Positions 25,068 to 29,640 of a stretch of DNA of 36,917 bases are shown here, piece by piece. The stretch's first letter is position 1; every line of letters begins with the position of its first letter. The position numbers were made by a program, and so were the translations under genes. This DNA comes from an uncultured Alphaproteobacteria bacterium (GTDB lineage Bacteria > Pseudomonadota > Alphaproteobacteria > HIMB59), in the NCBI GenBank assembly GCA_902521155.1, contig CABYQR010000011.1, positions 1-36,917 on the forward strand, given 5' to 3'. The notes beneath the pieces were generated by a model that was not told the DNA's origin, did no database searches, and was given only the letters and a program-made list of their open reading frames with translations.

Positions 25068-25989
25068 TAATATTTTTGCCAATAGTAAAGCTGTGTTTTC
25101 CTAATAAGAACTGCTTAATAGTCATAGCTTTTTTTCCTTCTGGTTGAATCTCTATAATATCCAAACTTCCATTTTTACAAGCTATCGTAAGAGGGGTATC
25201 AACTACTTCGCCAGGCGATCCTTTCAATTCAGAAATTCTTGCTTTTAAAATTTTAAATCTTGAACCTTCATATAAAAACCACATGGAAGGATAGGGATAA
25301 AAGGCTCTTATTTTCTGATTTATCTCAGAGGCACTTAGTGACCAAGTAATTTTAGTTTCAGACTTTTTAATTTTTGAAGCATAAGTACTTGAGCTGTTAT
25401 CTTGTTGTAAGGGAGAGATCTTTCCTGATAAATATTTCTCTAGATTATTAAAAAGCAAAGAGCAAGAGTCATAGCTCATTTTATCAATAAGTGATTTTCC
25501 GTTGGTATCGTTTGATATTGGTATTTCTTGTGAAGCTATTATAGGTCCTTCATCTAACCCTTCATTCATTTTCATAATAGTTATACCTGATGATTTATCA
25601 CCATTCTCGATAGCTCTTTGTACTGGTGCGGCACCCCTCCATTTAGGAAGAAGAGAGGCATGAATATTTACAAATCCATAAAGGGGAACGTTTAGCCAGT
25701 TGGCAGGAATAATTTTTCCATAAGCAAATAAAACAGCAATATCGGGCCTAAGTGATTGAAATTGTTCTAAGGATAAATCATTAAGTTTACTTGGGGTAAA
25801 AACAGGTAAAAGTTGGCTTTCAGCCCATTGATGCACAGGTGTTGCAATTTCTTTCATTCCCCTTGATTTTTTTTTTGGCTCTTGGGAATATATACCAACA
25901 ATTTTATAACCTCCTAGGTATAGAGTTTTTAAGGGAGGTAATGCAAATTCTGGTGAGCCAAAAAAAACTAATCTATATTTTTTTGTCAT
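25060..25989 (-). CDS. fmt: Methionyl-tRNA formyltransferase
   Basis: Fmt formylates initiator Met-tRNA using 10-formyl-THF. The 309 residues show FFGSPEFALP at the start, the catalytic Asn-His pair N108 and H110 (NIHASLLPKWRGAAP) and D146 (MNEGLDEGP). A Lys cluster (EPKKKSRG) is encoded by a run of ten A (plus-strand T10 at 25867-25876). The gene overlaps def by 17 bases. def-fmt is the standard pairing for adding and removing the formyl group. Confidence 0.97.
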   Translation of the reverse strand: MTKKYRLVFFGSPEFALPPLKTLYLGGYKIVGIYSQEPKKKSRGMKEIATPVHQWAESQLLPVFTPSKLNDLSLEQFQSLRPDIAVLFAYGKIIPANWLNVPLYGFVNIHASLLPKWRGAAPVQRAIENGDKSSGITIMKMNEGLDEGPIIASQEIPISNDTNGKSLIDKMSYDSCSLLFNNLEKYLSGKISPLQQDNSSSTYASKIKKSETKITWSLSASEINQKIRAFYPYPSMWFLYEGSRFKILKARISELKGSPGEVVDTPLTIACKNGSLDIIEIQPEGKKAMTIKQFLLGKHSFTIGKNING

Positions 25990-27584: not shown

Positions 27585-27911
27585 TTAAAAGGGCATTTTC
27601 ATACCTGGAGGCAAAGGCAACCCTCCAGTAATTTTTTTCATTTCCTCAGAAGACATCTCTTCAACTTTTTCTTTAGCCTGGTTAAGAGCAGCTTTGATTA
27701 AATCTTCCAATACATCCTTTTCCTCTTCGGATAAAAGTGATGGATCTATATTAATTGATTGAACTATTTGTTTTCCATTCATAACAACCTTAACCATTCC
27801 TCCACCAGACTCAGCTTCAATGGTTTTGTTTTCTAATTCTTTTTGCATTTCTTGCATTTTAGCTTGCATTTCTTGGACTTTTTTCATCATACCGCCCATA
27901 TTACCCATCAT
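27585..27911 (-). CDS. ybaB: Nucleoid-associated YbaB/EbfC family protein
   Basis: YbaB is a small dimeric DNA-binding protein whose gene is nearly always between dnaX and recR. The Met/Gln-rich helix KKVQEMQAKMQEMQKEL and the core SGGGMVKVVMNGKQIVQSI match the family, and the tail LPLPPGMKMPF is typical. Several start codons are close together. The ATG at 27911 has AGAGG at an ideal spacing of 8 bases and gives 108 residues; a GTG at 27920 and an ATG at 27917 are alternatives. The start lies inside the dnaX 3' end. Confidence 0.94.
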   Translation of the reverse strand: MMGNMGGMMKKVQEMQAKMQEMQKELENKTIEAESGGGMVKVVMNGKQIVQSINIDPSLLSEEEKDVLEDLIKAALNQAKEKVEEMSSEEMKKITGGLPLPPGMKMPF

Positions 27912-29505
27912 TTTCATCACCTCTTTCTATATCTTCAATATCTATAATCTTTGCATTGGGGAATTTAGCAAGAACTTTTTTAAAATCGTCTGTTTTCGTT
28001 TCCTGCTCAATTAGTTCTTTTTTGTATAAGATTTTGATTGATTCTAAATTGTCTATATTTTTTTTGACTACAATATCTAATTCAAAATCCTTATCAAAAT
28101 TTTGTTTAAGTTCCTCGCTTCCTTGAAAGCTATCTGACAAAACGTTAATTTTTAACTTCTTTTCTTTCTCAGAAAAATAAACTACTTCACATTGCTCCAT
28201 AATTATACCCGCCATAAGGGGAGAGAAATTTTTTCCGTAAAATTGGAAAAAATTTTGATGTATTTCTATTCTTTCCTTCAATGAAATTTTCATACTAGCA
28301 TCCACTTTGTTTTCAATAGCTTGATCTAAGTTAGGAGAGGATTTTTCTTCTTTTTTTTTTATTTCAGGCTTTTTTTTTTCTTCTAAAGTGTCAGAAGGAT
28401 TATCGTTTAAAAGAAATGCGCATCTCAGCAAGATCATCTCAAGTGTGGAGTGTGGATGAGGAGAAATTTTTATTTCATCATATCCTTTAATTAAGCTTTG
28501 CCAAAAAATATTTAATTTTCCATGATCGTATTGAGTCACATAAGATGCAAAATTTTTGTCATCTTCTGTTAAAAACTCATCTTTCATAAGATTTGAATTA
28601 ATTTTAAGTTTGCAAGACCAATTGATTATATTCATCAAATCTTCTAATATTTTTGATGTTTCAGATCCTCTTTGATACATAGTTTCAAGCTTGGAAATAA
28701 GATCAGTAAGATTATTTTCAAGTATATTCTTAGATAAATTGTAAAGATCGCTTAGCTTTGAGTAACCGAGCATATTGATAATTTCTTCTGTTTTTATTGT
28801 GTCTTCTAATTTAAAAACATTTGCCTGATCTAAAATACTCAGAGCGTCTCTCACAGAGCCGTCACTAGCTTTTACAATTAAGTTTAATGCCTCTTTTTCA
28901 ATTAATATATTTTCTTTATTGGCAATAGTTTCAAGAAATAAGTATAAAACTTTTTTATCTATTCTTCTTAAATCAAATCTTTGACATCTAGATAAAATAG
29001 TAATGGGGACCTTTGAAATTTCTGTGGTAGCAAAAATAAATTTTGAGTGGGGAGGAGGCTCTTCTAGTGTTTTTAGTAATGCATTAAAAGCACTCTTAGA
29101 GAGCATGTGCACCTCATCGATGATGTAAACTTTGTACTTACCTAAAACAGGATTGTATTTAACGTTTTCAATAATTTCCCTAGCGTTTTCAACACTAGTA
29201 TTTGATGCAGCATCAATTTCTATTACATCGGGGTGTCGATCTTCAGTAATAGCTTTTGCCTGTTCACAGTTTAAGAGATCTGGCTTATTAGAATTGTCAT
29301 AAGCTGTACAATTTAACATTTTTGCTACAATACGAGCTGTTGTAGTTTTACCAACCCCCCTTATGCCAGTGAATATATAAGCATTGGGAATTTTGTTAAG
29401 CTGAATTGATTTTTGAATAGTGTCTACAAGATACTCTTGGCCTATTAGATCGCTAAAGTCTTTTGGTCTATATTTAAGTGCGAGTATATCTGATTGATGC
29501 TTCAT
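27901..29505 (-). CDS. dnaX: DNA polymerase III subunit tau/gamma
   Basis: DnaX is the motor of the clamp loader and links the polymerase cores. The 534 residues show the P-loop GIRGVGKT (47-54), DEVH (130-133) and SRCQRFDLRRI. Domain III ends near 370, followed by a Lys/Glu linker and a C-terminal tau-type domain. Two features are unusual. Only two zinc-module cysteines remain (C66 and C80), where most DnaX proteins have four. The linker is encoded by two A10 runs (plus-strand T10 at 28370-28379 and 28351-28360); a one-base slip at either gives a stop within a few codons, which would make a gamma-like form of about 380 residues. Confidence 0.96.
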   Translation of the reverse strand: MKHQSDILALKYRPKDFSDLIGQEYLVDTIQKSIQLNKIPNAYIFTGIRGVGKTTTARIVAKMLNCTAYDNSNKPDLLNCEQAKAITEDRHPDVIEIDAASNTSVENAREIIENVKYNPVLGKYKVYIIDEVHMLSKSAFNALLKTLEEPPPHSKFIFATTEISKVPITILSRCQRFDLRRIDKKVLYLFLETIANKENILIEKEALNLIVKASDGSVRDALSILDQANVFKLEDTIKTEEIINMLGYSKLSDLYNLSKNILENNLTDLISKLETMYQRGSETSKILEDLMNIINWSCKLKINSNLMKDEFLTEDDKNFASYVTQYDHGKLNIFWQSLIKGYDEIKISPHPHSTLEMILLRCAFLLNDNPSDTLEEKKKPEIKKKEEKSSPNLDQAIENKVDASMKISLKERIEIHQNFFQFYGKNFSPLMAGIIMEQCEVVYFSEKEKKLKINVLSDSFQGSEELKQNFDKDFELDIVVKKNIDNLESIKILYKKELIEQETKTDDFKKVLAKFPNAKIIDIEDIERGDENDG

Positions 29506-29515
29506 TATTTAAAAG

Positions 29516-29603
29516 GAGAATTACACGACCCAGGTCTTTGTGTTACGGCTGCTTTCTTTCGAACCTGACCGGATTAGCATAAAAAACTGCCCATGTAATT
29601 CTC
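29516..29603 (-). ncRNA. ffs: Signal recognition particle RNA (4.5S type)
   Basis: On the minus strand the sequence carries the nearly invariant SRP domain IV, read as GGTCAGGTTCGAAAGAAAGC followed by AGCC, where GTCAGG and AGCAGCC flank a GNRA-like tetraloop. The ends GAGAATTACA (complement of 29594-29603) and TGTAATTCTC (complement of 29516-29525) pair perfectly, giving a small RNA of about 88 bases. The RNA partners Ffh to target membrane proteins, and a location just upstream of dnaX is common. The dnaX ATG is 10 bases beyond its 3' end. Confidence 0.93.
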
Positions 29604-29640
29604 GATTCATTTTATAACAGTTATCATACAAAATATGAAG

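Follow-up and report, generated by a model that had tools for sequence, protein, structure and literature searches.

A conserved run of ten A in the dnaX linker of an alphaproteobacterial family: a candidate slip site for a gamma-like clamp-loader subunit

Can a run of ten A in the linker of an alphaproteobacterial dnaX gene let that one gene make both full-length tau and a short, gamma-like protein, and if so, is it RNA polymerase or the ribosome that slips? Dual-product dnaX genes that work by slippage are known in kind: from E. coli, from Thermus thermophilus, where programmed transcriptional slippage at an A9 is described (PMC1088944, PMC5009743), and from the two-ORF genes reported in the GeneTack survey (PMC3711429); conserved -1 heptamers, dnaX among them, have already been surveyed over many genomes according to PMC4066793. 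No earlier report of a dnaX slip site in the HIMB59 lineage was found in the literature searched, a scope that excludes supplements and most subscription journals and does not establish priority, and in a search of the same scope for dnaX slippage in Alphaproteobacteria the match concerned prfB only. The locus considered here lies in a window (the whole stretch of DNA that was analysed, 36,917 nucleotides long) from an uncultured member of the HIMB59 lineage.

The dnaX gene and its two A runs

The dnaX product matches NCBIfam TIGR02397 at 415 bits against a cut-off of 250, and Pfam places DNA_pol3_delta2 at residues 23–182 and DNA_pol3_gamma3 (domain III) at residues 238–365, so that the AAA+ domains, domain III and a further C-terminal part all belong to one ORF, as a DnaX assignment demands. 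The initial annotation had placed two A10 tracts on the dnaX coding strand, at 28379–28370 and 28360–28351, and both positions are confirmed. The features are as follows.

27901–29505, minus strand: dnaX, DNA polymerase III gamma/tau subunit (full product, tau), an ORF of 534 aa.
28370–28379, minus strand: run 1, A10, codons 376–379 (GAA AAA AAA AAG), the proposed slip site, from sequence and conservation.
28369–28375, minus strand: in-phase heptamer A_AAA_AAG nested in run 1, identical to the E. coli dnaX heptamer, from sequence.
28364–28366, minus strand: TGA in the -1 (extra-A) frame, second codon past the last Lys, ending the predicted 380-aa gamma, from sequence and conservation.
28359–28361, minus strand: TAA in the +1 (lost-A) frame, ending a 381-aa product, from sequence.
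28351–28360, minus strand: run 2, A10, non-conserved and probably incidental, from sequence and family comparison.

Run 1 stands in the context GAA AAA AAA AAG CCT GAA, and translation of the shifted frames yields 380 aa ending in KKKA with one A gained and 381 aa ending in KKSLK with one A lost, which bears out the earlier readings Lys-Ala-stop and Ser-Leu-Lys-stop. Prompt stops in both shifted frames had also been claimed past run 2 (context ATA AAA AAA AAA GAA), where the products indeed end after 391 and 392 aa. Counted over the window, A9 matches number 13 against 15.2 expected from dinucleotide shuffles, and the window's ORFs hold four runs of A10 or longer against 3.9 expected, two of the four being the dnaX runs; this is unremarkable for an AT-rich window, and the case therefore rests wholly on comparison with relatives.

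Elsewhere in and around the gene, a bacterial small SRP RNA gene (29511–29605, minus strand; Rfam RF00169, 53 bits) lies just ahead of dnaX, with 5 nt between its end and the start codon, and because of this spacing the two genes may be on a shared transcript. Within dnaX, a second stretch at 27987–27946 (codons 507–520) is under strong synonymous-site constraint in the family, its most constrained six-codon windows showing 4–8 synonymous changes against 28–33 expected; it lies ~25–75 nt upstream of the start of the overlapping ybaB (Pfam YbaB), and no promoter-like or terminator-like match was found on it.

Run 1 and its shifted stops across the family

The family comprises 52 genomes in the collection, one per species and all under a single genus label, with a dnaX match in 44; of these 44 genes, the window's included, one (L044) ends short of the site, leaving 43 that cover run 1. 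Two members are irregular farther upstream, L024 with an in-frame TAA at codon 127 and L043 with a frame break near codon 125, both possibly assembly errors. In all 43 genes nothing interrupts the run across codons 376–379, which reads GAA AAA AAA AAG (A10) in 42 and GAA AAA AAA AAA (A11) in L042, and these codons show a single synonymous change where 9.6 would be predicted from those residues in the rest of dnaX (41 genes), within a linker whose codons 370–375 and 383–387 vary freely. The third Lys codon is AAG in 42 of 43 genes, though AAG accounts for 18% of the Lys codons in the family's dnaX genes, and this AAG both caps the run at ten and yields the in-phase A_AAA_AAG; just one other well-conserved Lys column is always AAG, codon 519, in the second constrained stretch. 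Of the 52 family genomes, 41 contain the exact string GAAAAAAAAAAGYCTRA, one copy each and always within dnaX, while the reversed-string control has zero matches there. A comparison with relatives had been proposed in the initial annotation on the expectation of conserved run length and synonymous avoidance of AAG: the length is conserved and in no gene broken, while AAG, far from being avoided, is the codon retained.

The stop in the extra-A frame, which is also the frame of a -1 ribosomal shift, is found at the second codon past the last Lys in 43 of 43 genes, as TGA in 40 and as TAA in L007, L041 and L042, in which Lys replaces Glu 381 without loss of the stop. The third base of codon 380, which supplies the T of this stop, is the same whichever of Ser, Pro and Leu the codon encodes; such invariance is shown by only 3 of the 187 four-fold-type columns in dnaX, the other two lying adjacent in one separate constrained stretch. 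Because the columns of codons 380–381 also change amino acid, their synonymous expectation is inflated, and reliance is therefore placed on codons 376–379 and on the third-base test. Four codons of the gene, 69, 309, 380 and 513, have a -1-frame stop retained by 40 or more of 41 genes; the protein is conserved at 69 and 309, and 513 belongs to the constrained stretch, which leaves 380 as the only one in variable sequence. The lost-A stop lies six codons from the GAA in 31 of 43 genes, ten in 10, twelve in one and 20 in one, and in 42 of 43 genes both shifted frames stop no more than eight codons past the run, against a control fraction of 0.48, a count that treats related genes as independent.

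Run 2 shows no such history. At its place no run of nine or more A is found in the other 42 relatives, and a run of at least seven A starting at codons 381–386 occurs among them only in the closest relative, L003 (A8), so that run 2 is rejected as a second slip site; L040 and L041 carry A10 runs of their own farther along the linker. Run 2 is probably incidental, judged from these sequences. The gamma-like product of about 380 residues that had been proposed for the gene thus keeps its basis at run 1, with its conserved run and shifted stop, and loses it at run 2.

Three other A runs of the window serve as fair controls, in genes identified by Pfam as fmt, truA and def. The fmt A10 (25867–25876) is kept in 26 of 30 relatives, with 2 synonymous changes in its four run codons against 7.5 expected; the truA A9 is kept in 19 of 30, and the def A10 in 5 of 30. 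Lys codons and AT bias can therefore produce a conserved A10, the caution raised earlier over fmt was justified, and a conserved A10 taken alone is rejected as proof of a slip site. The dnaX run differs from that of fmt in its minority AAG, its invariant third base, its conserved shifted stop and its otherwise variable linker. These controls bear directly on the explanation that nothing is recoded and that a conserved basic EKKK patch, combined with codon bias in an AT-rich genome, gives rise to the A-rich string, as bias presumably does in fmt and truA. We consider this explanation unlikely: it leaves unaccounted for the minority AAG in 42 of 43 genes, the invariant third base of codon 380 and a -1 stop that outlives amino-acid changes, together with the general avoidance of long A runs and the recurrence of the dnaX run in other families described below.

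A further alternative is phase variation, in which replication slippage at the run would toggle dnaX in subpopulations. Long homopolymers are mutable, which would favour it, but dnaX is expected to be essential, and, with one genome per species, an out-of-frame run length is found in 0 of 43 genes, the A11 of L042 having arisen from AAG to AAA and not from an indel; phase variation is accordingly very improbable here. Run 1, as the family comparison suggests, is very likely a functional slip site that would make a gamma-like protein. Counting against such a site are the conservation of the fmt A10, the unremarkable number of long runs in the window, the fact that the -1 stop at codon 380 is one of four that are kept, and the lack of the site in the sister family considered below.

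RNA polymerase or ribosome

If run 1 is a slip site, it would let the single dnaX gene yield two clamp-loader subunits. RNA polymerase, copying the ten T's of the template strand, would on a fraction of transcripts realign within the run; mRNAs with ten A's, or with ten plus or minus three, would encode tau of 534 aa, whereas those with one extra A would meet the stop at the second codon past the Lys codons and those with one A lost would stop soon after. The shifted mRNAs would give a gamma of ~380 aa with the AAA+ and collar domains I–III and without the C-terminal tau part, and this gamma would presumably enter the clamp loader. Its mass is estimated at about 43 kDa, beside about 61 kDa for tau. 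A ribosomal -1 shift on the nested A_AAA_AAG may contribute alongside. To us the better-founded reading of the sequence data, held with some reserve, is that slippage is mainly by RNA polymerase, as in Thermus dnaX; the main rival, which we rate as possible but considerably less probable, is a programmed -1 ribosomal frameshift of the E. coli kind, in which tRNA-Lys on the nested heptamer re-pairs one base back to give the same 380-aa gamma.

Genome statistics were drawn from the relative G001 (one contig of 1,410,127 bases, 99% complete), in which 367 kb of ORFs were compared with 100 synonymous shuffles in which every protein keeps its sequence and codon usage. Tracts of A10 or longer occur 8 times where the shuffles predict 38–39, a roughly five-fold deficit, and none of the 100 shuffles has so few; A11 or longer is absent where 12 would be expected, while A7 and A8 are over-represented relative to the shuffles. 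The in-phase A_AAA_AAG is likewise over-represented (97 against 70–79 expected), and both halves of the ORF sample agree on the A-run and heptamer statistics. Long A runs are thus avoided in G001, as expected if RNA polymerase slips on them, or replication, replication slippage being an alternative account of the avoidance; the heptamer, on which a slipping ribosome would act, is not avoided. No such avoidance of A10 and longer is seen in the window's own ORFs. The fmt A10 persists in 26 of 30 relatives despite the general avoidance in G001.

The stimulators that accompany ribosomal frameshifting in E. coli were also sought. No Shine-Dalgarno-like stimulator is recognisable upstream of run 1, an equal match occurring in 51% of control windows (mean over 43 genes), and the strongest single case is L007, where 2.7% of control windows are as strong. 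Nor is a downstream stem-loop found, the mean minimum free energy being -2.9 kcal/mol against -7.7 kcal/mol in control windows (43 genes, in a test of structures other than pseudoknots); the 70 nt 3' of run 1 are in fact less structured than 94% of control windows (family mean). The lack of an SD signal upstream and the unusually weak structure downstream speak against a ribosomal site, as does the length of the conserved unit, ten A, which exceeds what the heptamer requires. In its favour are the AAG that maintains the in-phase heptamer in 42 of 43 genes despite its minority among Lys codons, the -1 stop being the more strictly kept of the two, and the presence in G001 of one tRNA-Lys, with anticodon UUU and none with CUU, among 35 tRNA genes. 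A single tRNA-Lys(UUU) goes with ribosomal slippage in E. coli, as stated in PMC5009743, and in G001 it would permit the same; for transcriptional slippage, the near-constant AAG goes beyond the strict need of selection on run length, though it does cap the run at ten. From PMC6260861, slippage on 7–11 A is at least twice as efficient for insertions as for deletions, in line with the extra-A stop being the more strictly conserved, while E. coli RNA polymerase, by the same account, slips more readily on T runs than on A runs, which counts against the transcriptional reading.

Set beside the known systems, the window gene shares with Thermus dnaX (PMC1088944, PMC5009743) a single tau ORF, an A run of at least nine and nearby stops in both shifted frames. 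Of the features of a Thermus-type site, a conserved linker run of at least A9, stops in both frames and run avoidance are present, the last in G001 and not in the window; an mRNA population with a variable number of A's would be a further one. It is unlike Thermus in that its A10 ends in AAG, in its alphaproteobacterial origin in a window of ~32% GC and in that slippage is here predicted from sequence; G001 has one tRNA-Lys gene, against two in Thermus as given in PMC5009743. With E. coli dnaX the window gene has in common an in-phase A_AAA_AAG and an immediate -1 stop (PMC5009743), its predicted gamma would likewise retain domains I–III, and G001 and E. coli are alike in their single tRNA-Lys(UUU) according to the same source. 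The family differs from E. coli in having the heptamer inside an A10, with neither SD-like stimulator nor downstream hairpin found; among the features of an E. coli-type site, the heptamer (42 of 43), the -1 stop (43 of 43) and the tRNA complement (G001) are thus present, and the SD-like stimulator and stem-loop were not found.

Linker runs in other Alphaproteobacteria and their meaning

Beyond the family, the order-level sister family f2 was sampled by a manual selection of 20 genes out of the 82 f2 genomes that gave a match. In none of the 20 does an A9 or longer stand at the homologous place, although an A8 is found there in L089, L090 and L097, and A9–A12 runs occur elsewhere in the linker in 6 of the 20; an ancestral order-level site is therefore not supported, and the lack of the site is a point in favour of the no-recoding explanation.

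A class-wide sample holds 150 dnaX genes from 185 genomes with a match, the 35 weakest matches being left out; 139 of the 150 have a GC content of at least 35%, and 5 do not extend 50 codons beyond the anchor set at the end of domain III (L328 ends before it). In 19 of the 150, a run of nine or more A is located 8–50 codons past the anchor, in genes of up to 55% GC. The remaining homopolymers of nine or longer in the class ORFs number five, three of them 54–63 codons past the anchor and two in genes below 30% GC. Counted as a linker run in 22 of the 150 genes, the character takes 13 parsimony changes against 20.7 with shuffled labels, so that it is clustered on the tree and repeatedly gained or lost, and common ancestry of the site across the class is not supported. 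In a named set of 79 of the best 80 records, out of at least 594 matches (L101, a duplicate of L041, was dropped), a run in the linker region occurs in 3: L108 (SI.O27 bin), L113 (UR.bin47) and L115 (Marinicaulis sp. OFTM318, 61% GC).

Individual families show the run more consistently. For f42 (30 of 31 genomes with a match read), A9–A10 stands 22–48 codons past the anchor in 30 of 30 genes; for f81 (30 of 35 read), it stands 22–34 codons past the anchor in 27 of 30; in f21 it is found in 2 of 3. Both shifted frames stop within eight codons in 30 of 30 f42 genes (control fraction 0.26) and 26 of 27 f81 genes (control 0.19), counts that again treat related genes as independent. AAG ends the run in none of the 30 f42 genes, 1 of the 27 in f81 and neither of the 2 in f21; that f42 and f81 keep A9–A10 yet end it in AAG in 1 of 57 genes argues against the ribosomal alternative. 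The recurrence of A9–A10 in the same linker region, in class-sample genes of up to 55% GC, speaks against the no-recoding explanation.

In family f6, an A9 or A10 ending in AAG is followed by a zero-frame stop in 15 of 15 genes, at the second codon in 14 and at the fourth in L416, while the extra-A frame stays open for 65–187 codons and, in L211 and L213, resembles the DnaX C-terminal part by eye. Here gamma would be the default product and tau would be made only via a shift, as the gene structure suggests. This zero-frame stop past an A9/A10 with an open extra-A frame is the design of the two-ORF dnaX genes in the GeneTack survey (PMC3711429), and the window gene, with tau in frame, has the opposite design. 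The AAG that ends every f6 run is in keeping with ribosomal slippage, and E. coli-like stimulators are absent on average in the 15 f6 genes too, with L416, L419 and L422 having a stable downstream stretch at or below the 10th percentile of their own controls.

Other arrangements were also observed. In L238 a zero-frame stop follows an A9/A10 and the open extra-A frame resembles the tau C-terminal part by eye, again a reversed design; in L239 and L240 the dnaX C-terminal part seemingly lies in the -1 frame with no A8 or longer, where another slippery sequence or a sequencing error is possible; and in L123 and L138 (Pelagibacteraceae, SAR11) the dnaX ORF ends at ~420 residues, directly before a YbaB-like frame, as a much shortened tau.

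Caulobacter crescentus is an alphaproteobacterium that also uses short DnaX forms, with a gamma that comes from ClpXP processing, that is, from proteolysis and not recoding (PMC5422525). We suggest tentatively, at somewhat less than even confidence, that RNA-polymerase slippage at A9–A10 shortly past domain III may be a widely distributed, evolutionarily labile route to gamma in Alphaproteobacteria, present in at least five families, reversed in one where the slipped product would be tau, and standing in place of the proteolysis of Caulobacter. If so, the need for two DnaX forms would be conserved while the route to them turns over. The need for a short DnaX and its purpose were long controversial in E. 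coli, as discussed in PMC5009743; if a marine lineage with small genomes has held on to a slip site while it diverged, and such sites recur in other Alphaproteobacteria, this would mean that a short DnaX is worth keeping, and a ten-base run would offer a simple test case in which transcriptional and ribosomal slippage are told apart by genome statistics.
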